IMG/VR virus record: IMGVR_UViG_3300037088_000639
Location: 1 to 21,499 of that record
Length of the DNA stretch: 21,499 nucleotides
Strand: one strand, 5' to 3'
Source of the DNA: a virus
This document shows positions 1,103 to 16,199 of this stretch, one piece after another. The notes under the pieces are model-generated. The model ran no database searches and was not told the origin of the DNA. It was given only the letters and a program-made list of their open reading frames with translations. The translations under genes were made by a program, and so were the position numbers. How positions within the stretch are numbered: position 1 is the stretch's first letter; each line of letters opens with the position of its first letter.

Positions 1103-1218
1103 AAATTTATTACGAGATGATTCTACCTGCTATGATTGGCATATTAATGGGTGTGGCGTTTCTTGCCATAGTAATTTTTATTGGCTTTCTTTTATCGGGA
1201 AGGCACGGGAAGAAATGA
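1099..1218 (+). CDS. single-helix membrane microprotein (39 aa)
   Basis: Starts at ATG 1099, overlapping the stop of the previous microprotein, and stops at 1218, overlapping the ATG (1215) of the second glycosyltransferase. It begins MKIYYEMILPAMIGI, followed by a helix of about 24 hydrophobic residues and a basic tail (SGRHGKK). This is a second, unrelated-looking single-span membrane peptide placed directly between two glycosyltransferases. An overlapping frame from ATG 1095 runs into the glycosyltransferase frame, but its first 40 residues look like an out-of-frame translation of this peptide, so I prefer the microprotein. Function unknown. Confidence 0.55.
   Translation: MKIYYEMILPAMIGILMGVAFLAIVIFIGFLLSGRHGKK
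1114..1126 (+). repeat. 13-base direct repeat, copy 1
   Basis: GAGATGATTCTAC occurs here inside the 39-aa microprotein and again at 3459-3471, immediately before another microprotein start. Both copies are followed within a few bases by ATGATTG. It may be a remnant of shared ancestry of the two microprotein segments, or chance. Confidence 0.4.
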
Positions 1219-2288
1219 AGATTCTTTTTATCGAATCGGACAACCTCAAAGAGTACAACTGCTCAAACTGGCGCTGTGCAATACCGATGCGGGCTCTCAG
1301 ACGTGCCGGCCACGATGCTCACATGATTCGCATAGAAGAATGGGACAAGCGCACCGAGACAGCCATTAAGCTTACCCAGGCGGCGGACATCATATTCGTG
1401 CAGCGTAACCTTTTCAACGAGACTTTGGGCGAGGTGTTCTACTGGCGGGCCAAAGGAAAAGTCGTGGTCGCTGACGTTGACGACTCGTACAAGGACATGA
1501 CGGAAGAGACCGGCTCGCCCTCTTATGCCTACTGGATAAAGGGGAAGATAAAAGAGGGAGACAAAGAATACATATTATCTCCAACACCGCAGGAGATGCT
1601 CACCTTTGGGGCAAAGCTGTGCGGGTCCCTGTCCAGTCCGTCCGAGCTTATCTGTGAGGATTGGAAGAAGATTGTTAGAACTTACTGGTTTCCGAACTAC
1701 CTGGATTTGTCGCTCTACAAACGAAACACAAATTTCCGCCACGACCCCGGTGCGATTCATATCGGCTGGGGAGGCTCCATGACCCATCTGGTTTCATGGA
1801 TTGCCAGCGGAGCAGCGGAGGCTGTTTCACAGCTGATCAACGAGAATCCGAGGATAAAGTTTGTACACGTGGGCGATCCTCGCTGCGAGCGTCTGTTTAA
1901 GATTCCAGCGAAGAACCGGCTATGCGGAGTGTGGATCCCACAGCCGTCATTCGGGGCGAAGCTGTCATCGTTTGACATTGGCCTGATACCTCTCTCTGGA
2001 GAGTATGACCGGCGCAGGTCCTGGATAAAGACCGCAGAGTATTCCGTCATGGGAATTCCCTGGATCGGCACTGACATGGAGCCGACCAGGTCAGTCGACA
2101 CCGGCCTCCGGGTCAAGAACACCGCGGAGGATTGGTACAAGGCTCTCAAACTTTATACCGAGAACATTGAGGCTTTTCAGGATGCCGCCGCTGCCAACAT
2201 CGAGGCCAGCAAGGAGCGGTTCGACATTGACCTGCACACCGACGAGCTGGTGACGCTGTTTGAGAAGATCATCAAGGAGGCCAAGTGA
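1215..2288 (+). CDS. GT4-like glycosyltransferase (357 aa)
   Basis: I place the start at ATG 1215 (MKILFIESDN), preceded by a purine-rich GGGAAG and coupled by ATGA to the upstream microprotein. The longer frame from 1095 adds 40 residues without domain character. The N-terminal Rossmann-like half has a first beta strand KILFIES, then ADIIFVQRN and VVVADVDDSYKDM, the last matching the acidic cluster of the first gene. The C-terminal half starts near residue 180 (IHIGWGGSMTH) and has a nucleotide-sugar-like segment with FDIGLIPL and IKTAEYSVMGIPWIGTD. This is the GT-B layout at typical length. It probably adds a sugar to a phage- or host-encoded glycan. Strong SD AAGGAGG near its 3' end (2274-2280) serves the next gene. 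Confidence 0.75.
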   Translation: MKILFIESDNLKEYNCSNWRCAIPMRALRRAGHDAHMIRIEEWDKRTETAIKLTQAADIIFVQRNLFNETLGEVFYWRAKGKVVVADVDDSYKDMTEETGSPSYAYWIKGKIKEGDKEYILSPTPQEMLTFGAKLCGSLSSPSELICEDWKKIVRTYWFPNYLDLSLYKRNTNFRHDPGAIHIGWGGSMTHLVSWIASGAAEAVSQLINENPRIKFVHVGDPRCERLFKIPAKNRLCGVWIPQPSFGAKLSSFDIGLIPLSGEYDRRRSWIKTAEYSVMGIPWIGTDMEPTRSVDTGLRVKNTAEDWYKALKLYTENIEAFQDAAAANIEASKERFDIDLHTDELVTLFEKIIKEAK

Positions 2289-2650
2289 ACTACGAAGATA
2301 TTATGGGCGATAAATGGCGTGCCGTCATCAGTAAGGCTTTTCAGGACGCTGCGAATGAAGAAGCCGAGAAGATTCGCACGTGGGGTGTACCGACATCGGC
2401 AACTGGGAATTGGGCCGGCGTTGACATGGGCGGCCTAGACTCCAGTGGTTATATTTATATCCACGTAGCACGTCAGGGCGGGAAAACCGCCGAGACCATA
2501 GCTCAGATGGAAGCCGATTCAAAGAGGATGAATTTCATTTCACTGGCCAGTCGGTTGGGACAGATCGAGCACGAGAATCCTGGCATTATGAAACGGTTGC
2601 TCTCCTCAAAAGAGAGTGCCAACCTTTTAACACTATTGAAGGCAAAATGA
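2285..2650 (+). CDS. hypothetical protein, GTG start (121 aa)
   Basis: The start is GTG at 2285, overlapping the TGA of the glycosyltransferase (GTGA), with a near-perfect SD AAGGAGG four bases upstream. An in-frame ATG at 2309 (MGDKWRA) has no comparable SD. The protein is soluble and mostly helical at both ends, with a Gly-rich middle (GNWAGVDMGGLDSSGYIYIHVARQ) that may form a beta sheet. The C-terminal part is Ser/Leu-rich helix ending LLTLLKAK. No family recognised. It ends with ATGA overlap into the first Cys-rich gene, so it belongs to the same polycistronic run. Confidence 0.6.
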   Translation: MNYEDIMGDKWRAVISKAFQDAANEEAEKIRTWGVPTSATGNWAGVDMGGLDSSGYIYIHVARQGGKTAETIAQMEADSKRMNFISLASRLGQIEHENPGIMKRLLSSKESANLLTLLKAK

Positions 2651-3123
2651 TAACAAAATTCATGTTCCGAACGTGGCTTCACATTGATAGAGCAATGATG
2701 AATTTTTTTCTGCGGATAGTAAAAGCAGAAGGCAAATTTGAATTAAAACGCTTGGAGGTGAGGAAATTCCGGGCCACACACACGATTGATTTTCTTCTAG
2801 ACAGGCTGCCAATACAGACAAAAATAAAGATTTGTAACTTGATTTTCTCCCCACTGGGCCGCGTGTTGAAAAAGAACATGCTCCCGTTTTACGGTGGCGT
2901 TTGCAATAGATGTGGCACTCCGATAAAGCGGACGATCCTATGGGTAGAACCAATCGCGGGCGGTGATTTGGTAAGCGACGATTATTATCTTTGTAAGGGC
3001 GCCGGGGGGAGTTCTTGCTGGGTGTGTAAAACACCATTCTCAGTTATTCAAGTTTGGAAGAACGGGGTTTGTCAGCAAGAACACGAAAGCAAGATCAGGG
3101 TTCGGGAAATGAACCACCAATGA
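2647..3123 (+). CDS. Cys-rich putative zinc-binding protein, paralogue A (158 aa)
   Basis: ATG 2647 overlaps the previous stop (ATGA). The N-terminal half is basic and helical (MITKFMFRTWLHIDRAMM...), and the C-terminal half holds a C86-x2-C89 pair (VCNRCGTP), then C116 and a C124-x2-C127 pair (CWVC). Two CxxC knuckles about 35 residues apart are what a zinc ribbon needs. The next gene has the same plan: RLPxxTK, a helix, FYxGxCxxCGxP, a strand, a second CxxC, then a V-x-K segment. I therefore read the two as a tandem duplication. This copy has an extra N-terminal segment of about 50 residues. Zinc binding is inferred; DNA, RNA or protein binding cannot be told apart. Confidence 0.6.
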   Translation: MITKFMFRTWLHIDRAMMNFFLRIVKAEGKFELKRLEVRKFRATHTIDFLLDRLPIQTKIKICNLIFSPLGRVLKKNMLPFYGGVCNRCGTPIKRTILWVEPIAGGDLVSDDYYLCKGAGGSSCWVCKTPFSVIQVWKNGVCQQEHESKIRVREMNHQ

Positions 3124-3458
3124 AAAACTACATTACAAATCTCATGTTCCGCCTGCCACAGAAGACAAAGGTGTGGCTGTCTGATAATGTGTTGTGGCGT
3201 TTCTTCAAGCCGCCAGCGTTGTTTTTCTACGCTGGCCAATGTCATATATGTGGTGGACCGCTTCGATTCGTTGGAGTTTATATTGTTCCAGGGAATGTAC
3301 AGGAAAGTAAAGAAATTGTCAGTTTCAAACTACAGAATCCGGCCAGATGCCCTTACTGCAACACCCGTATCGGAAGAGTTGCTGTGTATAAGAGCGCCGC
3401 TGCAATGGTGGCCGGCAATCAGATTCTTCACGATCACGTTACGGCAAAGATGAATTAG
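3120..3458 (+). CDS. Cys-rich putative zinc-binding protein, paralogue B (112 aa)
   Basis: The best start is ATG 3120 (MKNYITNLMFRLPQ), coupled by ATGA to the previous stop. A longer frame from 3054 only reads the end of paralogue A out of frame. CxxC pairs are at C41/C44 (CHICGG) and C77/C80 (CPYC), which would make a compact zinc ribbon. It shares with the upstream gene the order RLPxxTK, then FYAGQCHICGGPL, then a VxPG strand and a Val/Lys-rich end. Function unknown; probably a small metal-stabilised regulator or binding protein. A 14-base gap with SD-like GGAG separates it from the next microprotein. Confidence 0.6.
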   Translation: MKNYITNLMFRLPQKTKVWLSDNVLWRFFKPPALFFYAGQCHICGGPLRFVGVYIVPGNVQESKEIVSFKLQNPARCPYCNTRIGRVAVYKSAAAMVAGNQILHDHVTAKMN

Positions 3459-3471
3459 GAGATGATTCTAC
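3459..3471 (+). repeat. 13-base direct repeat, copy 2
   Basis: Second copy of GAGATGATTCTAC, here overlapping the ribosome-binding region of the 43-aa microprotein (ATG 3473). See copy 1 at 1114. Confidence 0.4.
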
Positions 3472-3472
3472 A

Positions 3473-3604
3473 ATGATTGAGGGAAATGATAGAACGCCAA
3501 CGTGGGTTTTGAAAACACTTTTATTTATTGGTGGAATTATTATTCGGTTCAACTTGTTTCGGATGAAGTATCTTGGTTGGAGATATGGAGATGACGATGA
3601 CTAA
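3473..3604 (+). CDS. membrane microprotein (43 aa)
   Basis: ATG 3473 follows GGAG (3458-3461) at a somewhat long spacing. The product starts MIEGNDRTPTWVLKTLLFIGG, has one hydrophobic stretch of about 15-18 residues (VLKTLLFIGGIIIRFNLF), a basic/aromatic segment and an acidic Asp run at the end (GDDDD). It overlaps the start of the dehydratase gene by a few bases. A short membrane or amphipathic helix is likely; no family known. Compared with the other microproteins its helix is broken by an Arg, so membrane insertion is less certain. Confidence 0.45.
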   Translation: MIEGNDRTPTWVLKTLLFIGGIIIRFNLFRMKYLGWRYGDDDD

Positions 3605-4610
3605 ACATTTGCTTTTGACCGGGGGTGTCGGATTTATTGGCTCACACACCGTGGAGCACGTGCTCAAGAACACTGACTGGAATATAACCGTGCTTGATCG
3701 GCTCACCTACGCCGGAGACCTGAACCGGTTGACCGCGATGGACTGCTGGGAGCAGGAGCACGAGCGCGTGCACTTCGTGTACCACGATTTCCGGGCTCCT
3801 ATCAGTCTGGGCGTCTGGCACCACATCAAGTCTGGCTTCGGAGACGTTGATTATTTGATTCACATGGGCGCTGAGTCGCACGTCGACAGGTCGATCGCAG
3901 ACCCAATGCCGTTTGCCGAATCCAATGTGATCGGAACGGTCAACATGCTGCAGTTTGCTAAAGACGCCAAGGTGCCTAGGATGATTTACGTTTCTACCGA
4001 TGAGGTTGTAGGTCCAGTCAAAGACGGACAATTACACAAAGAAACAGACCCGCACATACCAGGGAATCCTTACAGCGCATCCAAGGCAGCCGCGGAAGAT
4101 TTCTGCCAGGCATATTGGAATACTTATGGCTTGCCGATTATCACATCCCGGACCATGAACAACTTTGGTGAGCGGCAGGACGTGGAGAAGTTTGTGCCAA
4201 GGACGCTTCGTGCGCTACTGCTTGGCCAGCCGGTCACAATCCACGTGAAGAAGAATGAAACTGGAGAGGTGGTTGACGTTTCATCACGGTGCTGGCTGCA
4301 TGCACGGAACCACGCGGACGCGCTCCTATTCCTGCTTGAGCATGGGGAACCCGGCGAGCGGTACAACGTTACGGGCGATCTTCTGGACGTCGAGAAAATG
4401 GCGCACCTTATTCAAGAATACTCTGGTATCTCAGAGTACAAATTCGAACTTGAGGACTTCCATTCATTCAGACCAGGGCATGATCTCAAATATGGACTTG
4501 ATGGTACAAAGATGATCAATATGGGTTGGAAGCCCCCTATGGATTTCAAGAACAGCTTATACAAAACAATCCAATGGTATCTTAATCACCCAGATTGGCT
4601 GGAAATGTGA
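3597..4610 (+). CDS. RmlB-like NDP-sugar 4,6-dehydratase / extended SDR (337 aa)
   Basis: An extended short-chain dehydrogenase/reductase. It has the NAD-binding GGVGFIG motif (residues 9-15), the catalytic triad segment STDE (133-136; Thr134, Asp135, Glu136) and YSASK (Tyr159, Lys163). AESHVDRSI and RPGHDLKYGLD match the dTDP-glucose 4,6-dehydratase (RmlB) signatures. The family converts dTDP- or another NDP-glucose to the 4-keto-6-deoxy sugar, the first committed step to rhamnose and other deoxysugars. The usual VYG after the triad is VVG here, and the protein is a little shorter than cellular RmlB (about 350-360 aa). Start choice: ATG 3597 has GGAG 6 nt upstream; ATG 3591 and 3585 and a TTG at 3573 are alternatives. 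It would supply donors for the two glycosyltransferases. No other rml genes are visible here. Confidence 0.88.
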   Translation: MTKHLLLTGGVGFIGSHTVEHVLKNTDWNITVLDRLTYAGDLNRLTAMDCWEQEHERVHFVYHDFRAPISLGVWHHIKSGFGDVDYLIHMGAESHVDRSIADPMPFAESNVIGTVNMLQFAKDAKVPRMIYVSTDEVVGPVKDGQLHKETDPHIPGNPYSASKAAAEDFCQAYWNTYGLPIITSRTMNNFGERQDVEKFVPRTLRALLLGQPVTIHVKKNETGEVVDVSSRCWLHARNHADALLFLLEHGEPGERYNVTGDLLDVEKMAHLIQEYSGISEYKFELEDFHSFRPGHDLKYGLDGTKMINMGWKPPMDFKNSLYKTIQWYLNHPDWLEM

Positions 4611-4612
4611 CG

Positions 4613-5050
4613 ATGAATATTGACGAGAGATTTTGGTCAAAGGTAGATAATAGCGGCGGCAAAGATGCTTGCTGGAATTGGAAATCGAGCATGGTAGTAA
4701 GGGGATACGGAAAATATGTACCAGCTCACAGATTTGCTTTCTCTTTATACAATAGCAGACCACTAGAATCTTTTGATGTCATACGCCATAAATGTGATAA
4801 CAAAAAATGCTGTAATCCAAAACACCTTGAAGAAGGTAGTCAAACAGATAACATGCGAGATTTCTATGAAAGGCAATTCAAGAATTGGGGCGAGACGAGC
4901 ACTGGCGCAAAGTTGACAGAGAAAGATGTTATTGAAATAAGAAGGCGGGCCGATACCGAATCGCATACAAAAATTGCAAAAGATTATGGTGTCAACAGAA
5001 GGCAAATAGACAGGATAGCTAATCACCAAAGCTGGAGGAGACTTATATGA
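4613..5050 (+). CDS. HNH homing endonuclease (145 aa)
   Basis: Start ATG 4613 (MNIDERFWSKVD), just after the dehydratase stop. The region CWNWKSS...GYGK...AHRFAF is the typical front of the phage HNH_3 type, followed by the core RHKCDNKKCCNPKHLEEG. In that core His59 is the first catalytic His, Cys61/66/67 and Asn68 follow, and His71 closes the motif. After it come a short linker and a helix-turn-helix-like tail (KLTEKDVIEIRRR...IAKDYGVNRRQIDRIANH, about 99-138) that would supply DNA specificity. Such genes are mobile and move between phage genomes. The base composition is visibly A-rich against its neighbours, consistent with separate acquisition. It sits exactly between two other accessory genes and disrupts none that I can see. 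Confidence 0.88.
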   Translation: MNIDERFWSKVDNSGGKDACWNWKSSMVVRGYGKYVPAHRFAFSLYNSRPLESFDVIRHKCDNKKCCNPKHLEEGSQTDNMRDFYERQFKNWGETSTGAKLTEKDVIEIRRRADTESHTKIAKDYGVNRRQIDRIANHQSWRRLI

Positions 5051-5748
5051 AATACACGACAAGATTCTCACCAACTGTGAATGGCAATCTTCATATCGGT
5101 CACATTTTTATGGCCCTTGTCAACGAATACGAGGCGCACCACTCCGGCGGCAAGTTCACCGTGCGCTTTGACGACGACCAAAAATATTGGAATGAAATAA
5201 AGCAAGTTGATACTAAAGAAATAGAAACAGGTATAAAGAATGACTTTATGTGGCTGGGTATAAAGGTGGATGAGTGGGAATCAGAGAAACTAATGAAACA
5301 CAACAGGGCCTTAATCTCTGGTTCTAAAATACCACCAGAAATGGCAGAATACCCAGACATCCCAGAGGTAGTCGGATGGACCGCCACAACTTATCCGTAT
5401 GCTCCGAATCTGACCGCCCTCAAGGTTTTACTGGATTACGTCGATGGCGTGAATCTACTTATTCGTGGAATTGATTTGATTACTGAATTCAGTCTGTATG
5501 AACATTATGTCGAGGAATTTGAATTACCATTCCCACGTCATGTTTATCTACCGCGGTTGACATTGGGGGGCAATGGGGAGATAAGCGACATCTCGAAAAC
5601 AGCTGGCAATAATTCTATCAAGCAGCTACGGGAGTATGGGATAACCCCCAAGTGGATTATAGACGACCTGAAGCGCTCCTGCCTGAAAGACCCGGAAGGC
5701 GATTGGTCAATTGATAATGTGAAAGCGAATCCGGTGTGGTTTCGATAA
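5047..5748 (+). CDS. stand-alone GluRS-like class Ic catalytic domain (233 aa)
   Basis: The N-terminus carries the class I synthetase signature: RFSPTVNGNLHIGH, with HIGH at residues 16-19, then GGKFTVRFDDD where GluRS has GGxFxLRIEDTD. An IRGID segment (139-143) matches the GluRS IRGDDH. DISKT (181-185) sits where the KMSKS-like loop (KLSKR in GluRS) is expected. The protein stops soon after that loop, so the anticodon-binding domains are absent. At 233 aa it is shorter even than GluQ-RS (about 300 aa), which glutamylates queuosine in tRNA-Asp, and it has no Cys zinc site. It should still activate an amino acid, likely Glu or similar, with ATP. The acceptor is unknown: a modified tRNA, a small molecule, or an aminosugar as in the CysRS-like MshC. 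It overlaps the HNH stop by ATGA and the permease start by 13 nt. Confidence 0.8.
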   Translation: MKYTTRFSPTVNGNLHIGHIFMALVNEYEAHHSGGKFTVRFDDDQKYWNEIKQVDTKEIETGIKNDFMWLGIKVDEWESEKLMKHNRALISGSKIPPEMAEYPDIPEVVGWTATTYPYAPNLTALKVLLDYVDGVNLLIRGIDLITEFSLYEHYVEEFELPFPRHVYLPRLTLGGNGEISDISKTAGNNSIKQLREYGITPKWIIDDLKRSCLKDPEGDWSIDNVKANPVWFR

Positions 5749-6683
5749 AGCGACTCTTCGCGGTTCCTGAACTTCTCATCCTGGCGGTGCTCGCGCTGCT
5801 GGCTGGGTTCTTTGAGTTGCAGAACCCGCTGTTTCTGTCCTGGGGGAATATAGCCGTGCTCTTGCGCTCCTCCGCGTTCACCGGGATCTGTGCTATCGGG
5901 ATGGCGGTGCTGCTAATCTCTGGGCAGATCGATATTTCAATCGGAAGCATCGCTGGGCTGGCTTCTGTGGCCTTTGCCACACTGGTAACGTATAAGTTAC
6001 CCTTTATTGCCGCAGCGGGGCTAGGAATCGTTCTGGGGGGATTCTGTGGCTTTATCAACAGTCAATTGGTGCTCAGACTGCGAATATCGGCGTTTCTGTC
6101 GACAATCGCCACAATGTACGTGTTTCGGGGCCTTGCGATGACCCTAACCAATGGTTATACCGTGTACCCGCTGCCCGCTGCAGTTAATTCTTTTGGGGAT
6201 GCACAACCTTTTGGTGTCAGCTGGTCGTTCTGGATATTCGCAGCACTATTGGTGATCATCGAATTAGTTTTATATTTTACGGTCTGGGGGCTGGAAGTAA
6301 AAGCGACAGGCTCAGACAAGGAGATTGCCTCATGGACGGAAGTCAACGTAAAGAAAGTCAACATGGAGACGTTCATCCTCTGCGGCGCTCTGGCAGCACT
6401 GGCGGCGATTCTATTGACAGCCCGGGTACAAGCGGGCCAGCCTACGATGGGACAGGGATGGGAGCTGAACGCAATAGCGGCAGCAGCTATCGGTGGAGTG
6501 TCCCTATCTGGATATACTGGTTCAATGGTCGGTGTATTTCTGGGAGTGTTGCTAATTCAGGTGCTAGCGAATGGGTTAGTGGCGATGGGTGCCTCGGCTT
6601 ATCTCCAACCTATTGAGGTGGGAGTGATCCTGGCCTGCACCGCTGCCATTGATGTGCGGAGAAGGGAGAGGCTAAAGATATGA
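5736..6683 (+). CDS. ribose/sugar-type ABC transporter permease (315 aa)
   Basis: A strongly hydrophobic protein with about eight to ten membrane spans. It matches the RbsC/BPD_transp_2 family through GQIDISIGSIAGLASV near residue 65 (family pattern GGIDLSVGS) and the C-terminal coupling region AAAAIGGVSLSGYTGSMVG, followed by NGLVAMGASAYLQPIEVGVIL. Length is normal for the family. It would form the inner-membrane channel of a monosaccharide importer, working with the binding protein at 7217-8230. The start is GTG 5736, inside the end of the GluRS-like gene; the next ATG is far inside the protein. No RbsA-like ATPase is present in the window, so it would need an ATPase encoded elsewhere or by the host. 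Confidence 0.9.
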   Translation: MVSIKRLFAVPELLILAVLALLAGFFELQNPLFLSWGNIAVLLRSSAFTGICAIGMAVLLISGQIDISIGSIAGLASVAFATLVTYKLPFIAAAGLGIVLGGFCGFINSQLVLRLRISAFLSTIATMYVFRGLAMTLTNGYTVYPLPAAVNSFGDAQPFGVSWSFWIFAALLVIIELVLYFTVWGLEVKATGSDKEIASWTEVNVKKVNMETFILCGALAALAAILLTARVQAGQPTMGQGWELNAIAAAAIGGVSLSGYTGSMVGVFLGVLLIQVLANGLVAMGASAYLQPIEVGVILACTAAIDVRRRERLKI

Positions 6684-6880
6684 AATTATTACCCAAGTGC
6701 CCTCAAACAATGACTAAGGCACTTAATCAAGCGCACCCAGAACTTGACCCAAGCAAGCCTATTTCTGATGCCGATTTCTGGCAGGGGATTGAAGAACTCG
6801 ATGATTTGATGCGCACTGTGGCTGACAGAAACCAACGGTTGACTATCAAAATGCGCTACGGTAAAAAGGAGAAGCCATGA
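6680..6880 (+). CDS. hypothetical protein (66 aa)
   Basis: ATG 6680 overlaps the permease stop and its own stop overlaps the next microprotein start (both ATGA). It begins MKLLPKCPQTMTKALNQAHP and continues with an acidic helix (DADFWQGIEELDDLMRT) and a basic tail. No family recognised. Perfect coupling on both sides is the main support. It may be a small helical partner protein, but nothing identifies the target. Confidence 0.55.
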   Translation: MKLLPKCPQTMTKALNQAHPELDPSKPISDADFWQGIEELDDLMRTVADRNQRLTIKMRYGKKEKP

Positions 6881-6969
6881 ACCTACTTGGTGCACTCGTT
6901 GTCTTTATAGTGATATTCGCAATTGGAATCGGAATTGTCAACAGTTATATCTCAAGAAAGGACAAGTAG
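6877..6969 (+). CDS. single-helix membrane microprotein (30 aa)
   Basis: ATG 6877 overlaps the previous TGA (ATGA), and SD-like AAAAGGAG lies upstream (6865-6872). The product is MNLLGALVVFIVIFAIGIGI followed by a polar basic tail (VNSYISRKDK). The whole N-terminal two thirds is an uninterrupted hydrophobic helix, so a single transmembrane span is predicted. It lies between the permease and binding-protein genes, so it could be a small regulator or accessory subunit of the transporter, but it also resembles the microproteins at 992 and 1099, which are not near the transporter. Confidence 0.55.
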   Translation: MNLLGALVVFIVIFAIGIGIVNSYISRKDK

Positions 6970-6971
6970 AG

Positions 6972-7220
6972 ATGGCATCAAATGACTTGAAGATTACGGT
7001 TGAACTGAGTCCGTTGTTTATTGTGGCCCCGAAGGAATGGGACAGTGAAACCATCGATAATTTTGAAGAACACTTGCACGGAGATTTGGCGATGGAGCGC
7101 ATTATTATTCTCCCTTACGGCACTAAAATATTTGGTTTCCTTAAGATTCATCAGAAGCCAAGCTTCTGGCTTGGTATCATAAAATCAATTTTACTCAAGA
7201 GAAAGGTGGTAACAAAATGA
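6972..7220 (+). CDS. hypothetical protein (82 aa)
   Basis: ATG 6972 follows two bases after the microprotein stop, and the ORF ends by ATGA overlap with the binding-protein gene. It starts MASNDLKITVELSPLFIVAP, contains alternating beta-like and acidic segments (WDSETIDNFEEHL), and ends in a Trp/Leu/Ile segment with a basic tail (FWLGIIKSILLKRKVVTK) that could bind membrane. No family recognised. Confidence 0.5.
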   Translation: MASNDLKITVELSPLFIVAPKEWDSETIDNFEEHLHGDLAMERIIILPYGTKIFGFLKIHQKPSFWLGIIKSILLKRKVVTK

Positions 7221-8230
7221 ATAAGGTACAGAAAGTGATCTTTGTTGTGTTATTGCTTATCATCGTGGGGTTGTTCGCCTATCAACTTACACAGGCTCCC
7301 GCACTGAAGCCGGTTGCAAAAGGAACCGACTTTTCGCAGTACCAGGACGGCAAGCCGTTCCGCATGGTGGTGACTAATCAGGAAGTCCCGGTCGTAAAGA
7401 TTATGATCGCCGGTTTCCTGCAGGCGTGTTCTGACTATAACCTCAAGTGTCAGGTCATGGGCGTCACCGGGAACGATATCGCCGGATCTGTGCAAATGGC
7501 TGAGCAATCGATCAGTCTGGGCAGCTCTGGCATCCTGGCCACTGTTTATGATAAGGCTTGGTATGGTCCGGTCGGGGATGCGATCAAAGCGGGGATCCCT
7601 GTGGTCAATGCGCACTTCCCAATGGCCTCTGATGTCATTCCAGGCCTTTCAGCATGGGTCGCTCCTGACAATACGGGGTACGCGGTTACCGCAGCTGATG
7701 CGATGGCCAGTAAGTTGAACTGCGCTGGAAAAGTAGCGATTACGCAGTCAGGGGCCAGCGACGCTGAGAGCGCCGTTAATGCATCCTTCAAAGCAGAGAT
7801 GGTCAAGGATTGCCCGAATATCGCTGTGCTTGACACACAGATGGAAACCACCGACCCGGCTCAGGCGATTCTTGTAACGAGCGCGATCATCAAAGCCAAT
7901 CCCGATTTATCCGGGGCGTTCTCCAGCACGGGCGGTGGGGCGACAGCCTGGGCGACATCGGCCAAAGAGAGCGGACTGGCCGCGGGTAAGATTGCGATAA
8001 TCGGGATGGACTTCACCCAGCAGAATCTTGACCTCTTGAAGAGTGGCGATGTGTACGCACTTGTGGCACAGCCAACTTTTACAGAGATGGAGGATGGTGT
8101 GGTTTTGCTTTTGGAGATCAGAATGGGCTATCAGATCCCGTACGCTAATGTTCTGGCAGCACCGTTGATCTTCAAGAATGGCACAGCACCCTACTATGAT
8201 ATTCTTAAGAAAGCGGAGGCAGTGAAATGA
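7217..8230 (+). CDS. type I periplasmic sugar-binding protein, RbsB-like (337 aa)
   Basis: The N-terminus is a short basic stretch, then a hydrophobic segment (residues 7-23, VIFVVLLLIIVGLFAYQ) with no lipobox Cys. This is either a signal peptide (possible cut after TQA, about residue 27) or an uncleaved anchor. The mature part fits Peripla_BP_4/RbsB: a first strand FRMVVTNQEVP, SGILATVYDKAWYGPVGDAI, GIPVVNAHFP, PDNTGYAVTAADAM, GKVAITQSG, and the C-lobe GKIAIIGMDFTQQNLDLLKSGDVYALVAQP. This two-lobed layout binds a monosaccharide-like ligand and delivers it to a permease, here almost certainly the one at 5736-6683. SD-like AAAGGTGG precedes the start. It is uncommon in a phage genome. The ligand cannot be read from sequence. 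Confidence 0.88.
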   Translation: MNKVQKVIFVVLLLIIVGLFAYQLTQAPALKPVAKGTDFSQYQDGKPFRMVVTNQEVPVVKIMIAGFLQACSDYNLKCQVMGVTGNDIAGSVQMAEQSISLGSSGILATVYDKAWYGPVGDAIKAGIPVVNAHFPMASDVIPGLSAWVAPDNTGYAVTAADAMASKLNCAGKVAITQSGASDAESAVNASFKAEMVKDCPNIAVLDTQMETTDPAQAILVTSAIIKANPDLSGAFSSTGGGATAWATSAKESGLAAGKIAIIGMDFTQQNLDLLKSGDVYALVAQPTFTEMEDGVVLLLEIRMGYQIPYANVLAAPLIFKNGTAPYYDILKKAEAVK

Positions 8231-8526
8231 TGAGCATAACTATGACTAATGCAGAACCAATAGCGGAGCAAGAATTATCCCCGCTGATGAAAAGCATAAA
8301 TGAATTGTATAAGGCAGTAAGTGGTGTTGAGACAAGAATTAGTGGGCATCTTGAACCAAAATTAAAACATTTAATGATGGTTCCAGACGCAGTAAAAAAA
8401 GATGAGGCCAACAAGTCCGTATCAGTTCAGATAGACTCTGCAGCCAAGCTCGAAATCGATCGATTGACTTCAAGGGTAAAAGTTATTGAAAGTATCCTTG
8501 AAAATTTTGCAAACAGACTGCAGTAA
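8227..8526 (+). CDS. hypothetical coiled-coil-like protein (99 aa)
   Basis: ATG 8227 overlaps the binding-protein stop (ATGA); ATG 8230 is an equally possible start one codon later. The product is charged and helical throughout, with heptad-like hydrophobic spacing in LSPLMKSINELYKAVSGVET and in RLTSRVKVIESILENFANRL. A homo-oligomeric helical bundle is likely. The segment is A-rich compared with the flanking genes. No family recognised. Confidence 0.55.
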   Translation: MMSITMTNAEPIAEQELSPLMKSINELYKAVSGVETRISGHLEPKLKHLMMVPDAVKKDEANKSVSVQIDSAAKLEIDRLTSRVKVIESILENFANRLQ

Positions 8527-8541
8527 AAAGGAGCATTCAAA

Positions 8542-8763
8542 ATGAGTCCATTACCAGACACCAAGAAAGCAGTAATATCCGACGCCACGATCGTCGAGCA
8601 ACTTCGCAGCGAGATATCCGTCCTAAATTCAGTGTTGGATGAAGCTCGCGCCCGCGACATGCTGGTGCAGGTCACCATGACCGACAAGGCCGGCACGCCG
8701 TCATTTCATCTTGACGCAGCGTACAAACAGCTCGCCAAGCCGCTCATCATCACGCACCTATGA
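8542..8763 (+). CDS. hypothetical protein (73 aa)
   Basis: ATG 8542 has a clear SD AAAAGGAG (8526-8533) eight bases upstream. The N-terminal 40 residues form a helix (VEQLRSEISVLNSVLDEARA) and the end has a short beta-like part (MLVQVTMTDKAG). The stop overlaps the methyltransferase start (ATGA), so the two are coupled. No family recognised; it may be a small partner of the preceding helical protein. Confidence 0.55.
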   Translation: MSPLPDTKKAVISDATIVEQLRSEISVLNSVLDEARARDMLVQVTMTDKAGTPSFHLDAAYKQLAKPLIITHL

Positions 8764-9233
8764 TTCGCCTTGATATTGGCAGTGGCCCTTTGCCGCGAGC
8801 TGGCTTCACCGGGGTGGACTTCTATGTCGACGCCCCGGGCATCATCAAGGCGCCAATGAATAAACTGCCCTACGAGGATGAGACCGTTGACGAGATTTAC
8901 AGCTCCCATGCTCTTGAGCACATCGGAAAATATGAGGTCATCCCCACGCTTACCGAGTGGTGGCGGGTGCTCAAGTTTGAGGGACTGCTTACTATAGAAG
9001 TCCCGGACTTCGAATGGGTGTGCAGGAACTGGCTAAAATATAAGGACAACGGGTGGAACCTTGACGCAGTGTTTGGAGACCAGGTTGACATGGGCCAGTA
9101 CCACAAAACTGGCTACACAAAACAGTTGATGTACGGGTACCTCATGGAGTCTGGTTTCACAGGCCGGACAGTTGAATCGGCTATTGTGTTTTCTCACAAT
9201 CAAGACTGTTTGGTATTTTCGGTTCAGAAATAG
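8760..9233 (+). CDS. small SAM-dependent methyltransferase, class I-like (157 aa)
   Basis: Begins MIRLDIGSGPLPRAGFTGVD. Residues 4-9 (LDIGSG) are the SAM-binding motif I, with the acidic GVD after the next strand as motif II. Then KLPYEDETVDEIYSSHALEHI matches the Methyltransf_11 pattern (motif IV), and WWRVLKFEGLLTIEVPDFE is the usual post-helix strand. Length is short for the family, and there is little room for a substrate domain. Such small enzymes often sit in polysaccharide clusters and O-methylate sugars. That role fits the neighbouring sugar genes but is inference. Translation is probably coupled to the upstream ORF, since no SD is evident. Confidence 0.8.
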   Translation: MIRLDIGSGPLPRAGFTGVDFYVDAPGIIKAPMNKLPYEDETVDEIYSSHALEHIGKYEVIPTLTEWWRVLKFEGLLTIEVPDFEWVCRNWLKYKDNGWNLDAVFGDQVDMGQYHKTGYTKQLMYGYLMESGFTGRTVESAIVFSHNQDCLVFSVQK

Positions 9234-9244
9234 GAGAATAATCA

Positions 9245-10267
9245 ATGCCATTCCTCAATAACTCGGAGCACTTTCTTTTGATGGACATTGCCGCCCTTAG
9301 TGGCACGGATCCGTCAAATTACCCACTGGTGCCGCTGGAGCAGTATGAGCACCGAACTCTGGATGAGCTAAAGCAGCTCAGGGATGTCGGCATACAAACC
9401 ACGATGAACTTCCAGACCGTACGCAAGTTTATAGAGACTGCGCCCGGGGTGTACGATTGGTCGTACCTGGACGGGTATGTTAACCGTGCTACGATCGCCG
9501 GAATGAAGTGTCTCTTGTTTACGACCACACATGGATATCCGGACTGGTACCCGGATGATTACTTTGCCAAGTGTGCGGACGGCGTCCACCGCGAGGCACT
9601 CAGTCCCTGGAATGAGGAGGCGATGGCCGATAACAACGCATTCACCCATAAATTGATCGAGCGTTATTACAGCGAAAATCACTGCATGGTGATCAGCAGC
9701 CAGCAGTCCGTTGGAGAGACCGCGTACCTGAATATGCCGGCCTTTTATGATCCTGCGGCTATAAAGTCGTACCAGGATTACTCAGAGACAGATGGCACGC
9801 CTTCCCCAAATGACCCGGTCACGAACCTGTGGATGTTGTACAGCCTCAGCAAGATGCTGGTCGAACAGCAGAGTATTATGGCCAAGCAGAACAATGAAAT
9901 CTGGCTGATGCTTCATCCGGCGATTGCCGACATGGGCTACTACGGAAATGGCTGCAACTGGATCGACGAGCTGGAGTATGACCTGACCCAGCGCATCCCT
10001 GGCGTTAAGATAAATCATCTCTACTATACGTGGATTCAATGGGCCGCGTACTGGTCAAAGATGAATTCCCTGCGCGACAAATATCACGAGGACGTTTTCG
10101 GTGGAGCGGAGTACGCAGAAGGATTGCCGGTGACAACACCACAGGCAATTGCACAGGGGCTGCGTGGTCAGATCATCGCCCCGTGTTACCCAGGAATACA
10201 CGAGCACCTTGAACCGTGGATGCTTGAGAACATCAAAGCAGCGCAGAAGTTGTGGGAAACCAAGTGA
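9245..10267 (+). CDS. putative TIM-barrel glycoside hydrolase, clan GH-A/GH42-like (340 aa)
   Basis: ATG 9245 is preceded by AGGAG. The stretch ETAPGVYDWSYLDGYVNRA, then AGMKCLLFTTTHGYPDWYPDD, is the beta-strand pattern seen in GH42/GH-A enzymes (pattern: P..G.yDws.lD......a...G.kvll.t....P.W). Candidate catalytic residues are Glu158 (SVGETAYL, where an acid/base Glu would end strand 4) and Glu289 (GGAEYAEG, where a nucleophile would end strand 7). No signal peptide is visible. It would cleave or rearrange a glycosidic bond. It could be a virion depolymerase, but it lacks a recognisable tail-fibre domain. It is the last gene of the left-hand run, directly before the promoter region. Confidence 0.6.
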   Translation: MPFLNNSEHFLLMDIAALSGTDPSNYPLVPLEQYEHRTLDELKQLRDVGIQTTMNFQTVRKFIETAPGVYDWSYLDGYVNRATIAGMKCLLFTTTHGYPDWYPDDYFAKCADGVHREALSPWNEEAMADNNAFTHKLIERYYSENHCMVISSQQSVGETAYLNMPAFYDPAAIKSYQDYSETDGTPSPNDPVTNLWMLYSLSKMLVEQQSIMAKQNNEIWLMLHPAIADMGYYGNGCNWIDELEYDLTQRIPGVKINHLYYTWIQWAAYWSKMNSLRDKYHEDVFGGAEYAEGLPVTTPQAIAQGLRGQIIAPCYPGIHEHLEPWMLENIKAAQKLWETK

Positions 10268-10316
10268 CACGCCCCTGCACAAAAAAGCATAAAAACAGTA
10301 AATCTGTGAAATAGTT

Positions 10317-10325
10317 TGCTATAAT
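10317..10325 (+). promoter_or_regulatory. extended -10 promoter before the terminase (cassette copy 1)
   Basis: TG-C-TATAAT at 10317-10325 is a perfect extended -10 box for a sigma70-type polymerase. No good -35 lies at 16-18 bp upstream, which extended -10 promoters do not need. Transcription would begin near 10332. The same TGCTAYAATAGMAA string occurs before the protease gene at 16125. A small ACAG-n5-CTGT dyad (10295-10307) lies just upstream and could be an operator, but this is weak. Confidence 0.7.
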
Positions 10326-10331
10326 AGAAAC

Positions 10332-10399
10332 AGATTCTGCAATTTCGTGAAACGTAGACACACGGAATGGATATCAGTCCATTCCGTGTTTTTATTTTT
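10332..10399 (+). ncRNA. conserved leader RNA, copy 1 (about 65 nt)
   Basis: The expected transcript between the promoter and the terminator holds CGTGAAACGTAGACACACGG (10346-10365), which recurs almost exactly at 16151-16171. CGTG (10346-10349) can pair with CACG (10361-10364), the same bases that form the left arm of the terminator, so a weak alternative hairpin competes with termination. It could be an attenuator leader or a released small RNA. The transcript start is inferred from the -10 box. Confidence 0.5.
10361..10399 (+). terminator. intrinsic terminator/attenuator in front of the terminase
   Basis: A perfect 11-bp stem (CACGGAATGGA with TCCATTCCGTG), a 6-nt loop and a T-rich tract (TTTTTATTTTT). 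It lies between the promoter and the terminase start at 10410, so transcripts from this promoter meet it within about 60 nt. Transcripts from the upstream accessory operon would also end here. Confidence 0.85.
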
Positions 10400-10409
10400 A
10401 AGGATATTG

Positions 10410-11942
10410 ATGGCGATCTCAATTGCAACCCCACTGGCTTTACGTGCAACAGCCGAGCTGGAATTACGCAGCCGGATCGGTAAAGAGACTGCCAATCCAG
10501 AAGGATCACAAAACCCCTTTCAAAAACAATATATGAATGATCCAGTGGCGTTTGTGCATGATTGTATTCGCTGGAAAGAAGGGGAGGGACCTGCAAACTA
10601 TCAAGACGCGGCTCTTTCAGAATTGATCATCTATCATCGCGAAAGTCTGCGCAGCCCTCACGGTGCCGGAAAAACAGGTTTAGTTGGATGGGCAGTCCTT
10701 TGGTTTTCATTGGTCAACGATGGATGGACAGATTGGAAGATCCCAATCACAGCCAGTGCCTGGCGACAATTGACGAAATTTGCCTTACCTGAAGTGCACA
10801 AGTGGGCGCGGCGATTGAAATGGGATAAGATCGGGCGCGAACCTTTCAACGAACGAACAGAACTCACACAACTTTCTTTGAAGCTAAAAACTGGGGAGGC
10901 ATTTGCTTTGGCCAGTGACAATAGCGCGTTGATAGAAGGCGCACACGCTTCAAAAATGATGTACGTTTTTGATGAATCCAAAGAGATACCTGTGGCTACA
11001 TGGGATTCTGCCGAAGGCGCATTCAGTGCTGGCGAGTGTTTTTGGTTGGCAGTAAGTACCCCGGGAGAACCAGTTGGTCGTTTCTATGATATTCAATCAC
11101 ATAAGCCCGGCTATGATGATTGGCATACAAAACACATTGCTCTTGAGGATGTAATCAGCGCGGGGCGTGTATCAAAATCGTGGGCAGAATCCAGACGGCT
11201 ACAATGGGGAGAGCAATCTGCAGTTTACCAGAACCGCGTCAAAGGTGAGTTTGCCAGCTCCGAGGCTGACGGTGTTATTCCGTTGTCATGGATAGAGGCC
11301 GCCAACGATCGCTGGGATGATTGGTTTGAAACCAAGCCTGAACTGACATTCGTGGCCGTGGGTGCAGATATCGCCAGATCAGGCGAGGATAAGACTGTTC
11401 TTGGCCTGCGCTGGGGCATGGTGCTCACGGAACTGCGGGTGACCTCGAAGGAGGACACTATGCAAACCACCGGTCGCGTCAAGGGAATTTTGGATGCTCA
11501 CGGTGGCAAGGCGATGGTCGATGTTATTGGCATTGGGGCCGGTGTGGTTGACCGCCTCCGTGAAATGAAAGACAAGAACGACCGGAAGTACAACATTGTT
11601 GCATTCAACGCATCCGAGCACACTGACTACACTGATAAATCGGGGGAGATGGGTTTTATAAATTGTAGAAGCGCTTCCTGGTGGCACCTGCGAGAACTTC
11701 TGGACCCGGCCGCAGAGAGTGGTATTGCGCTTCCAAAAGACGATATGTTGACCGGAGACCTGGTAGCCCCTCACTGGAAAGTTACCTCTGGGGGAAAGAT
11801 TCAAGTGGAAGCGAAGGAAGATATCAAAGAACGCATTGGAAGGTCTACTGATTACGGAGATGCTGTGGTCATGGCCTTTTTTGACAATAACGTGCTGTCT
11901 CTGCAGAACTGGACAGACGCCCTGAAGAAGCATACGAAGTGA
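10410..11942 (+). CDS. terL: terminase large subunit (510 aa)
   Basis: The start is ATG 10410 (MAISIATPLAL) with AAGGAT just upstream. A longer frame begins at GTG 10347 but lies inside the leader/terminator and is rejected. The ATPase part has the Walker A SPHGAGKT (residues 82-89, Lys88) and Walker B YVFDES (Asp188-Glu189). The C-terminal RNase H-like nuclease has Asp320 (VGADIARSGEDKT), Asp371 (AMVDVIGIG) and Asp484 (DYGDAVVMA), the three metal-binding acids of this fold. It is the packaging motor that cuts and pumps DNA into the prohead through the portal encoded next. No small terminase subunit is recognisable directly upstream. Confidence 0.93.
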   Translation: MAISIATPLALRATAELELRSRIGKETANPEGSQNPFQKQYMNDPVAFVHDCIRWKEGEGPANYQDAALSELIIYHRESLRSPHGAGKTGLVGWAVLWFSLVNDGWTDWKIPITASAWRQLTKFALPEVHKWARRLKWDKIGREPFNERTELTQLSLKLKTGEAFALASDNSALIEGAHASKMMYVFDESKEIPVATWDSAEGAFSAGECFWLAVSTPGEPVGRFYDIQSHKPGYDDWHTKHIALEDVISAGRVSKSWAESRRLQWGEQSAVYQNRVKGEFASSEADGVIPLSWIEAANDRWDDWFETKPELTFVAVGADIARSGEDKTVLGLRWGMVLTELRVTSKEDTMQTTGRVKGILDAHGGKAMVDVIGIGAGVVDRLREMKDKNDRKYNIVAFNASEHTDYTDKSGEMGFINCRSASWWHLRELLDPAAESGIALPKDDMLTGDLVAPHWKVTSGGKIQVEAKEDIKERIGRSTDYGDAVVMAFFDNNVLSLQNWTDALKKHTK

Positions 11943-11949
11943 GGTAGAT

Positions 11950-14900
11950 ATGGGTTTACGTGAAGCACTCAGCGGTTTTATTTCTGGACTTGGTCAAAGC
12001 GGTCAAACCGCCCGTCCGCCGGTAAATGTGCAACCTGGATTGGGAACGCTTGAGGTTGTTGATACATCGAAGTCACCGACCCGGAGCAATATTCCAGGCT
12101 CGTGGAGCCGGACGTTCCTTGGCCCAGGCCAGCCATTTGCCAGCATGGATATGTCGCAGGTGTCAGCCAGAGACAAAGACCGAGAGTCGGAGCCCAGGGC
12201 GTTTCAGTACGTGACAAGCGTCAACAGCACGATCAGCCCCAGGCTCGCTTATGGGCTCATGGCGTTCTCTGATCTGAGATTCTATGCAGAGTCTGTGCCG
12301 GAGGTTAGCATGTGCATCCGGTTGCTGACCGAGGAATTAAAAGCCTTTGTTCCGACCATCATCGATACGCAAGGCAATGCAATCTCCGATTCTGAATATC
12401 AATGGATGACTGACAGGCCGGACCAATTCAACCCGTTCCCGGTGTGGCTGTCCAGGTTCATGTACAACACACTTGTTTATGACGCTTGCACCGCTTACTT
12501 GGTGCGCAACAGCCGGAAGAAGATCATCGCATCACGTATCATTGATGGCTCCACCATCTTTGTGCTGATCGATGAACGCGGTGAGCAGCCACGACCACCG
12601 GCTCCAGCCTTCCAGCAGATCATCTGGGGTGTTCCCCACGGAATGTACAATACCCGGCAAATATGGTATCACCCGCGCCATCTGCGGGCCGATGCTCCTT
12701 ATGGGCGCAGCCCGGTCGAGGATTCGTTACCTGCAGTCAAGTTGCTGCAGAACCTCTGGGATTATGAAGGAGACAAATATATCGTCGGCAACATCCCCGA
12801 AATGGGTCTGACCACTCCTCCAGAATGGAAAGACGATGCTGATGCCATCCTGGAGTACGAGGACGCTTTCAACGCGAGAATGTCCGGGTCTAACAAGGAG
12901 CGTGTCAGGGTGAGATTCTTCCCGTCTGGGACAGAAACACTGGCCACGAAGGAATTGACGTTCAACAAGGATAGCTACGACGCCGCCACTAACGCGGTGC
13001 GCATGAGCTTTGGCATTTTGCAGTCAGAGGTTGGCGAAGGCCCCAGCGGCGGTCTGGGCGGGAAGGGTTATGCAGAAGCTATGCAGTCGGCCTTTTACCG
13101 CATGGGACTGGCCCCGCTGATATCATATATCGAGAGTCACTTCAACGATATCCTCAAGATGAACGGCGAGAATAAACAGAAGTTCAAACTTGAGTTTCCA
13201 CCTGAATCTCTGGATCCATCGAAAGAAGAAGAAAAATATGCTACAAGATTCGAGAATGGTGGTATCAACCGCGATGAATACAGGCAGGGAATTAGCATGA
13301 ACCCGATCGGCGGCGAGGTTGGCAATTTCTTCATCACCGACGCTGTTGGCCCGGACGAGGGCGATGATAGTCAAATGCCCGATTTCGGCGGCGGCGGCAG
13401 TGGCAACCACAGACCCATTAAGGTGATCAACACTAGACGTGTACAGGTACGCAGGCCGATCAAGGTTCTAAAGAACCCCGTGGACGTGGCCAAGAATCCT
13501 GTACCTGTCAAAAAGGTAGACGCCAGCGAGATAAAAGAGCTCGGTAATAAACTTGGCGTAGATTGGGACAACATCAATCCAGATGAATTTGTAGCCGGCG
13601 TGAATGAAGAAATGGAGCACATTGACACGGTTGGCAGTGTAGAGACCGTGGCACAGATCGCTCTTGACCACCTCAAGGAAGATCCCGCTTATTACACCAA
13701 GTTGAAAGGAATATTCGCAAAGTTCGACCTTCCAACGTTACAAAAGTATTGTGGTGTTGACCCGAATGACGACCTGTTATTTGGCAGCCCGGCGTCGCTT
13801 TACGCAGAGGCGGACATGCCCCACCAGGGAGCAAACGAGAGCATGATCGTGAGCATCGGGGGCACCAATGACCTGGATGCGAGGCCGGCAGTCTGGAAGC
13901 CCTTAGTTGGGGAGACACCTGATTTACAGGGATGGGTAAAGGGTACGCTGTTCCGCAGGGCCGAGGCAGCTTATTTGCTTGACAGAGAACTTGCCCCGGA
14001 CGAGAAACACTATCTGGTGCCGGTCGCATATATCACAGAGATCGACGGTGAAATCGGCAGCGTGCAGCATTATGTCATAGGCCGGCAAGACCGCGAGGAC
14101 GTCAGTGCTTACGGCCAGGAATGGATCGAGCAGGCTGCCGTCCTGGATTACATCATGGGACAGGTTGACCGAAATGGCAAGAACTGGTTGACGCACCCGC
14201 ACGATACTAAACGGCCCGTGTTGATCGACAATGACCTCTCATTCTCGCCTGACAAAGACGAGACTCTTCACAGCACATTCGTGGACGCCATGACCGGGCG
14301 GCCGCTGACACAAAAGACACTTGATGCAATTTACCTGGCAATTGGCAGCCACGACCTCTGGGAAGATTTGCAGGACTGCCTTGAGGACGAGGCGGCTGTA
14401 GCCAATGCGAAGGCACGTGCCGCAGAGCTGTACCAGAATGGCATGATTGGTGGCAGAGACCCGGATCGGGTGTTTGTGAAAAACAATTCAGACGAACCGC
14501 TTGACAAAGGCGACTTCGAAGAGGATAAACACCCACGCGCTAAAGATGGAGAATTCACAGGCAAGGGCAGAATGCTTAGATACGATCCAGAGAAACACAA
14601 GGGATTACCCCTGTATCAAATAGTGTCAGTAAAAGTTGGAGAGCATTCGATTGGCACTGGGCACGAACTTGTAACAGATGAAAAGGAAATAGAGAACGCC
14701 GACAAAGTCCCCTACTTTTTCAAAGTGAAATATTCTGATGTTGTGGCAAGAGATAGCGTTTCTTCTTACTTGCACCCTTTTACCGACGAAGAGGCAAAAA
14801 GTATCTCGGAGAAGTTACCTGTTGATGTTCCATTTTCAAAAGAGGGGTTGATAGCCACTGTTACTGATTGTCTCCCTAAATTATCCCCAGATGATTTGAA

Positions 14901-15051
14901 TATGGTCTTCAAGTACTATAAAGAGTCTGGTGGTCAAATGGAGTTGTCTCATAAACCTGGCATTGTTTCTTCCGAAAACCCAACGGAAGAAACAATTGTA
15001 AAGAAGTCCGATTCCCGAAAACGGCACAAGGCAAAGAATGAGACGAACTGA
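11950..15051 (+). CDS. portal protein fused to a PI3/4-kinase-like domain and an extra C-terminal domain (1033 aa)
   Basis: ATG 11950 follows GAGGTAG. Residues 1 to about 477 are the portal: a linker, then YGLMAFSDLRFYAES, PEVSMCIRLLTEELKAF, WYHPRHLRADAPYGRSPVEDSL, and C-terminal helices. This is about the normal length of a portal. A Gly-rich linker (about 480-485) and a basic KN/PV repeat segment follow. Residues about 620-820 look like a PI3/4-kinase/HipA-type kinase: AVWKP (Lys650, ATP-binding), GETP, GTLFRRAEAAYL, GSVQHYV, DRNGKNW (Asp740, Asn745), IDNDLSF (Asp760, metal). HPRAKDGEFTGKG (861-873) marks a linker, and 160 residues of unknown fold end the protein, encoded by AT-richer DNA. 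The portal forms the packaging vertex, so about 12 kinase copies would sit at the portal ring. It overlaps the next gene by 14 nt. Confidence 0.85.
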   Translation: MGLREALSGFISGLGQSGQTARPPVNVQPGLGTLEVVDTSKSPTRSNIPGSWSRTFLGPGQPFASMDMSQVSARDKDRESEPRAFQYVTSVNSTISPRLAYGLMAFSDLRFYAESVPEVSMCIRLLTEELKAFVPTIIDTQGNAISDSEYQWMTDRPDQFNPFPVWLSRFMYNTLVYDACTAYLVRNSRKKIIASRIIDGSTIFVLIDERGEQPRPPAPAFQQIIWGVPHGMYNTRQIWYHPRHLRADAPYGRSPVEDSLPAVKLLQNLWDYEGDKYIVGNIPEMGLTTPPEWKDDADAILEYEDAFNARMSGSNKERVRVRFFPSGTETLATKELTFNKDSYDAATNAVRMSFGILQSEVGEGPSGGLGGKGYAEAMQSAFYRMGLAPLISYIESHFNDILKMNGENKQKFKLEFPPESLDPSKEEEKYATRFENGGINRDEYRQGISMNPIGGEVGNFFITDAVGPDEGDDSQMPDFGGGGSGNHRPIKVINTRRVQVRRPIKVLKNPVDVAKNPVPVKKVDASEIKELGNKLGVDWDNINPDEFVAGVNEEMEHIDTVGSVETVAQIALDHLKEDPAYYTKLKGIFAKFDLPTLQKYCGVDPNDDLLFGSPASLYAEADMPHQGANESMIVSIGGTNDLDARPAVWKPLVGETPDLQGWVKGTLFRRAEAAYLLDRELAPDEKHYLVPVAYITEIDGEIGSVQHYVIGRQDREDVSAYGQEWIEQAAVLDYIMGQVDRNGKNWLTHPHDTKRPVLIDNDLSFSPDKDETLHSTFVDAMTGRPLTQKTLDAIYLAIGSHDLWEDLQDCLEDEAAVANAKARAAELYQNGMIGGRDPDRVFVKNNSDEPLDKGDFEEDKHPRAKDGEFTGKGRMLRYDPEKHKGLPLYQIVSVKVGEHSIGTGHELVTDEKEIENADKVPYFFKVKYSDVVARDSVSSYLHPFTDEEAKSISEKLPVDVPFSKEGLIATVTDCLPKLSPDDLNMVFKYYKESGGQMELSHKPGIVSSENPTEETIVKKSDSRKRHKAKNETN

Positions 15052-16139: not shown

Positions 16140-16199
16140 GTAATAGACGACGTGAAACAATAGACACACGGCGACCTTTCCATAGGCCGCCGTTTTTTT
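16140..16199 (+). ncRNA. conserved leader RNA, copy 2 (about 60 nt)
   Basis: CGTGAAACAATAGACACACG (16151-16170, followed by G) repeats the leader block of copy 1 with one base inserted and about two changed. CGTG (16151-16154) can pair with CACG (16167-16170), the latter overlapping the left arm of the terminator, so the same switch-like competition is possible. Bases outside the block differ between copies, which argues for selection on the block and not for a recent duplication. Confidence 0.5.
16169..16199 (+). terminator. intrinsic terminator/attenuator before the protease
   Basis: CGGCGACCT and AGGCCGCCG form a 9-bp stem with one A-C mismatch, a 6-nt loop, and seven T residues follow (16193-16199). 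The stem sequence differs from copy 1 but the position relative to the conserved block is the same. It lies 22 bases before the protease start. Confidence 0.8.

Follow-up and report, generated by a model that had tools for sequence, protein, structure and literature searches.

We analysed the whole of a 21,499-base viral contig (IMG/VR record IMGVR_UViG_3300037088_000639; hereafter the window), in which genes for a CUT2-type sugar permease and a substrate-binding protein (SBP) lie among phage genes and form part of a recurrent cassette that has no gene for an ABC ATPase. On the plus strand, glycosyltransferase genes and a nucleotide-sugar epimerase gene are followed by genes for an HNH endonuclease, a GluRS-like protein and the permease, by two small open reading frames (ORFs), the SBP gene, further small ORFs, genes for a methyltransferase and a GH42-like hydrolase, and then the terminase, portal, MuF-like, protease and capsid genes; the genes of the operon are codirectional and overlap by 4 or 13 nt (Table 1). 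A sequence-only reading of the same DNA had recognized an RbsC-like permease and an RbsB-like binding protein in a coupled operon with phage genes, and the family matches bear this out (PF02653, 137.6 bits against a cut-off of 26.8; PF13407, 100.3 bits against 35.1). It had placed three small ORFs between the two, of which we count two as plausible, and it overlooked that the GluRS-like and GH42-like genes belong to the same conserved cassette as the transporter.

The permease has AraH as its best NCBIfam match (5.5e-50, under the equivalog cut-off) and keeps the signature residues D66, S68, G70, G105, N108, T123, G192, G253, G254, G259 and G262. Two of its loops are altered, and both are cytoplasmic, the third and the fourth, according to family hydropathy and the positive-inside pattern. 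The cellular comparison set comprised 47 permeases (34 Anaerolineae hits, nine E. coli transporters and four plasmid-borne). Their coupling loop reads G-x-[N/S]-x-x-[A]-x-x-x-x-G, the final Gly being present in 46 of the 47 and replaced by Ala in one (LsrD), and all 47 have the Gly of the SLxGGxG motif in the fourth loop. Every one of the five full-length phage permeases carries instead the motif TGSD[KR]E[IV]A..TEV, with Glu at the coupling Gly, and Tyr at the fourth-loop Gly; moreover, D194 stands where the cellular permeases have Asn or Ser. A197 was dropped as a further coupling-loop change, the cellular permease of locus L119 having Val there; A198 is kept. Searched for as a DNA pattern, the phage motif was present in each phage permease tested and absent from all of 400 Chloroflexota genomes. 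RbsC is classed with the type II importers (PMC11466899). In another type II permease, FhuB, replacement of the equivalent Gly (G226 or G559) by Ala, Val or Glu lowered uptake, and the structure leaves a side chain no space (PMC8660799); for IsdF to bind FhuC, its coupling Ala/Gly pair and a C-terminal part that includes loop four are required (PMC10147376).

Decay of the permease motif is ruled out by the low dN/dS values between close phage copies, which are 0.025-0.043 for the permease, 0.022-0.043 for the SBP, about 0.06 for the GluRS-like protein and 0.04-0.12 for the hydrolase. Since these values reveal purifying selection, the motif change is being maintained. Because the permease is present in just two or three independent lineages, the shift was probably one event that has been retained in all phage copies.

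An alignment of phage and cellular SBPs retrieved seven further viral contigs, to which a permease alignment added L132 and L134. Wherever the sequence is complete, the cassette order is GluRS-like, permease, SBP, GH42-like. On the 67.6-kb contig L124, the SBP is 50% and the permease 51% identical to those of the window; identities are 42-46% for L125, L126, L128 and L129, and L127, L130, L132 and L134 hold partial cassettes. The GluRS-like gene is kept beside the permease gene in L124-L126, L128, L129, L132 and L134, and in four copies (window, L125, L126 and L128) the two share an overlap of exactly 13 nt. The cassettes sit on three unrelated backbones, namely the window, the 67.6-kb contig, and a 40.3-kb contig with its relatives. 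Their terminases have different best PHROGs (phrog_2 for the window, phrog_979 for L124, phrog_38 for L129), and the window proteins encoded outside the cassette had no match on the cassette contigs. L124 looks nearly complete, with a terminase gene at one end and, by eye, a likely small-terminase gene at the other; in L129 the cassette sits between capsid and head-tail genes. A relative with a TerL 70% identical to that of the window, L005, begins within an SBP gene (35-39% identical) and repeats the window order of SBP, 73-aa ORF, methyltransferase, GH42-like, TerL and portal, and L002, from another sample, has a 99% identical TerL and spans about positions 8355-13434 of the window. Carried in phage genomes, on three backbones and under purifying selection, the four genes are, as far as their sequences tell, a conserved phage auxiliary gene cassette.

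The earlier remark that no RbsA-like ATPase is visible extends well beyond the window: no PF00005 match above cut-off was found in it, in five relatives or in seven cassette contigs (the 67.6- and 40.3-kb ones included), and one sub-threshold match overlaps a RecA-like ORF. A search to the left of the window, as had been suggested, has no object, the record being the entire contig. Since every locus is metagenomic and contigs may be incomplete, the absence of an ATPase is firm solely for the sequence analysed. Single-protein scans of IMG/VR with the SBP and the permease gave no match, nor did queries of INPHARED with the SBP, the GluRS-like protein and the L125 SBP; permease matches in INPHARED were only 25-33% identical. 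None of the 41 contigs with distant TerL relatives (L009-L049) has PF13407 or PF02653.

The SBP has sugar-binding proteins as its relatives in the PDB, and homologues in L005 and L124-L130. Its anchoring differs between copies: in the window and in L124 the N-terminus is hydrophobic and, as the sequence-only reading had it, there is no lipobox Cys in the window protein, and L125-L128 carry a lipobox (IGMIGC). Aligned with what we take to be the sequence of E. coli RbsB, the SBP keeps D215 and Q235, and N13, F15, F16, N64, D89, R90, R141 and N190 are replaced; it thus lacks most of the ribose-contact residues of RbsB. The replacements are common to the phage and the L119-type SBPs. With most of the RbsB contacts replaced, the predicted ligand is probably monosaccharide-like and other than ribose. 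The neighbours in cellular operons (SDR, FAA hydrolase, transaldolase-like and UlaG-like genes) hint that it may be an unusual sugar or sugar acid.

The first cassette gene encodes a short GluRS-like catalytic domain. A profile of five phage copies (233-246 aa, no anticodon domain) matches GluRS over both the HIGH and the KMSKS halves, and HxGH and SK[TS] motifs are conserved in all five. The protein has no close similarity to ordinary cellular GluRS and does not reach the GluQRS equivalog cut-off (65.6 bits; cut-off, 250); a low-confidence structure model matches the fold of GluRS and E. coli GluQRS. The last gene, with copies in L005, L124-L130 and L148, encodes a GH42-like protein that scores 23 bits against a PF02449 cut-off of 21 and gives a PDB profile match of 1.1e-7 over the N-terminal third only. 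No N-terminal hydrophobic signal was seen in it. E158 is invariant, and the candidate nucleophile E289 (GAEY) is His in L124; these two are the candidate catalytic glutamates.

The two enzymes also occur as a pair. On L148, a phage contig from the bin of an Anaerolineae genome, GluRS-like and GH42-like genes are adjacent (3930-5727) and there is no permease or SBP; the contig also has a portal gene and an intein-bearing terminase-like ORF. In another Anaerolineae genome (L149:1777-3566), a more distant GluRS-like gene (274 aa) adjoins an ORF that looks by eye like a TIM barrel, and the pair comes after sulfotransferase-like and glycosyltransferase-like ORFs. We therefore read the enzyme pair as the wider phage core and the transporter as an addition to it. 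Directly upstream of the GluRS-like gene there is a family-2-type glycosyltransferase gene in L125 (928-1548) and in L124 (7598-8344). Such genes in two cassette lineages suggest glycan modification as a theme of the cassette.

The phage permeases form one clade (support 100/99) that groups with the permeases of the cellular loci L119-L123. The phage and L119-type SBPs likewise form one clade (100/100); unlike that of the permease, monophyly of the phage SBP is not supported. Among 396 Anaerolineae genomes, the SBP had five outstanding matches (36-38% identity, E 1e-44 to 1e-53; all others E >= 2e-21), each adjoining a permease gene. L119 is a full operon with a permease (44% identical), an SBP lipoprotein (37%), a double ABC_tran ATPase and sugar-type enzymes; L120-L122 have two permeases, an SBP and a single-domain ATPase nearby, and L123 has permeases and an SBP up to the contig end. 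We conclude, on sequence relationships, that a complete Anaerolineae transporter of permease, SBP and ATPase either gave rise to the phage permease and SBP or has a common ancestor with them. The cellular operon of L120 also contains, at 10314-13253, a 979-aa ORF in which a binding-protein domain occurs in three near-identical tandem copies, which is either a triplication or an assembly artefact. Among genomic relatives of the TerL, the best (54-56%) are mainly from Anaerolineales/Chloroflexota, and more distant ones come from Calditrichota, Acidimicrobiia and Streptomyces. Given these TerL and transporter relatives, and a surface motif in L129 that we take to be Chloroflexota-like, the host probably belongs to the Anaerolineae/Chloroflexota.

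We tentatively propose that the cassette serves binding-protein-dependent uptake that is not driven by a canonical ABC ATPase and that is coupled to cytosolic trapping or processing. The membrane-anchored SBP would capture a monosaccharide-like ligand at the cell surface and hand it over to the permease, through which it would pass down its own gradient. In the cytosol the GluRS-like protein, as an adenylate-forming enzyme, and/or the hydrolase, with neighbouring glycosyltransferases, would consume or trap the ligand and thereby pull uptake, and the product may feed a phage-directed glycan or other modification. The closest precedent for uptake of this kind is BtuM, a membrane subunit of the ABC family that reportedly functions without an ATPase module and whose gene is linked to that for BtuR; facilitated diffusion with trapping has been proposed for it (PMC6072759). 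The recurrence of the cassette, the lack of PF00005, the permease clade, E202 and Y260, and purifying selection all support ATPase-free uptake. The narrower claim that phages converted an ABC sugar importer to ATPase-independent SBP-dependent uptake, pulled by or docked to the GluRS-like adenylating enzyme, seems unlikely to us; the GluRS-like protein as a dedicated motor of the permease was demoted by L148, which has it and the hydrolase without a transporter.

Several points weigh against uptake without an ATPase. A single substitution cannot prove loss of coupling to an ATPase; the altered motif is conserved and so may dock something; and the enzyme pair, since it occurs without a transporter in L148, is not tied to uptake. 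Structure prediction does not help: the permease model, whose resemblance to permeases of ABC importers (PsaC and HmuU, for example) is only weak, has a predicted local distance difference test (pLDDT) score of 51, that of the GluRS-like protein 54, and both are too poor for docking to be inspected; a PDB sequence search for permease templates found none. Finally, we know of no precedent for ATP-free transport by a CUT2-type permease.

The strongest rival is a classical auxiliary metabolic gene function, in which the permease and SBP would recruit a host RbsA-like ATPase during infection, as cyanophage PstS supplements Pst. Phage pstS is indeed a precedent (PMC10987575). Moreover, the nearest relatives in cells belong to full ABC systems of the likely host group, the pore and SBP families are intact, and Anaerolineae genomes are rich in CUT2 permeases, so the ATPases should be present; a host may have one whose groove matches. 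Against this stand Glu and Tyr at the docking glycines and D194 for Asn/Ser, all clade-wide, and the absence of the motif from the Chloroflexota genomes searched, so that none of the host permeases there was found to have a docking surface that matches. Because both docking loops are substituted throughout the clade at near-invariant glycines, borrowing of a host ATPase is weakened, and we regard it as rather unlikely. Of the sequence-only reading, a phage permease and SBP without an ATPase has proved to be a conserved cassette and no one-off, and the idea that a host ATPase is diverted has lost ground.

A decoy or exclusion function is improbable. Here a non-transporting permease-SBP pair would occupy host partners or surface sites and stop host sugar uptake, or block superinfecting phages that use the transporter as receptor. 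A change in ATPase docking would be expected of a dominant-negative subunit, the SBP is surface-anchored and glycosyltransferases lie nearby; however, constraint across the whole SBP and clade-specific pocket residues shared with a cellular transporter suggest a metabolic role, and a decoy has no obvious need of a linked hydrolase and GluRS-like enzyme. Still less probable is a ligand sensor, in which the SBP and permease would signal external sugar to a cytoplasmic partner docked at the altered loops, for which the GluRS-like protein, being translationally coupled, is a possible candidate: the conservation of the new motif and the constant 13-nt overlap would fit, but the GluRS-like and hydrolase genes are also found without a permease, and no signalling domain was seen. 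That host DNA, a chimera or contamination was wrongly placed on a phage contig is hardly credible, for all the homology to bacterial transporters and the fragmentary nature of the contig, because the block recurs in the same order together with terminase, portal and capsid genes on independent contigs, L005 keeps the gene order through TerL and portal, and L002 comes from another sample; the window is not a chimera, and the assembly break and the host operon envisaged earlier both fail in the face of this recurrence.

Around the cassette, positions 34-4610 of the window hold two phage glycosyltransferase genes (phrog_7162) and the nucleotide-sugar epimerase gene. The 1033-aa portal (11950-15051) has a C-terminal extension that gives a weak match to TIGR03843 (SCO1664 family) and reads like a PI3/4-kinase-type domain; its homologue in L005 (4592-7774) runs instead into what looks by eye like a JAB/MPN-like HNHPGG motif.

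Table 1. Features of the window, those of the cassette first
Feature	Position	Strand	Basis or remark
GluRS/GluQRS-like short catalytic domain, 233 aa, first cassette gene	5047..5748	+	PF00749 9.5e-17; overlaps permease start by 13 nt
CUT2/BPD_transp_2 permease (RbsC/AraH-like), 315 aa	5736..6683	+	PF02653 E=5.8e-40
Altered coupling-loop motif TGSDKEIASWTEV, residues 191-203	6306..6344	+	E202 replaces Gly
Y260 in cytoplasmic loop SLxGGxG	6513..6515	+	Y260 replaces Gly
Peripla_BP_4 SBP, 337 aa, N-terminal membrane anchor, no lipobox	7217..8230	+	PF13407 1.7e-28
GH42/GH35-like TIM-barrel hydrolase, last cassette gene	9245..10267	+	PF02449
Small ORF, 66 aa, window lineage only	6680..6880	+	weak phrog_15170 match only, E 0.026
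Small ORF, 82 aa, window lineage only	6972..7220	+	no family match
Small ORF, 99 aa, same operon	8227..8526	+	ORF call
Small ORF, 73 aa	8542..8763	+	conserved in L005 at 33% identity
S-adenosylmethionine (SAM) methyltransferase	8760..9233	+	PF08241; 64% identity to L005
Terminase large subunit and portal	10347..15051	+	PHROGs
MuF-like	15038-15931		PHROGs
Prohead protease	16198-17421		PHROGs
Likely major capsid protein	17402-19504		position and homology to L006

ABC importers are standard examples of machines driven by ATP. In the conserved viral clade, the docking glycines have been exchanged under strong purifying selection and no ATPase gene is present; the clade is thus a natural experiment on whether a permease of this type can operate without ATP hydrolysis or on another engine. 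In phages that are probably those of Anaerolineae, which are common and mostly uncultivated bacteria, the cassette moreover joins a sugar importer with an aminoacyl-tRNA-synthetase-like enzyme and a glycosidase, and suggests an undescribed phage modification or nutrient pathway. CUT2 importers such as E. coli RbsABC and AraFGH and the L119 operon have the same PF02653 permease with conserved pore glycines and the same PF13407 SBP, and L119 has the same permease/SBP gene order at the identities given above. Of the marks of a CUT2 system, the permease and SBP are thus present, whereas an encoded ATPase and the coupling-loop glycine are lacking, Glu and Tyr having replaced the Gly of the coupling and fourth loops; the SBP, like the L119-type clade, is without the RbsB ribose contacts D89, R90, R141 and N190, and the gene partners are instead GluRS-like and GH42-like. 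Phage pstS and related auxiliary genes are likewise phage-encoded transporter parts, often the binding protein only. However, PstS relies on the host Pst system, whereas here permease and SBP travel with two enzymes in a fixed cassette; we know of no reported change at ATPase docking residues in pstS-type systems. The solitary ECF S-components BtuM and BioY are, like the phage permease, ABC-family membrane subunits, reported to support uptake without an ATPase module, and the ATP-using BtuR linked to BtuM is a possible substrate trap; they differ in fold, have no binding protein and are non-viral. GluQRS (YadB) shares with the GluRS-like protein a short GluRS catalytic core without an anticodon-binding domain, but the phage protein is linked to a transporter and a hydrolase rather than to tRNA modification genes.

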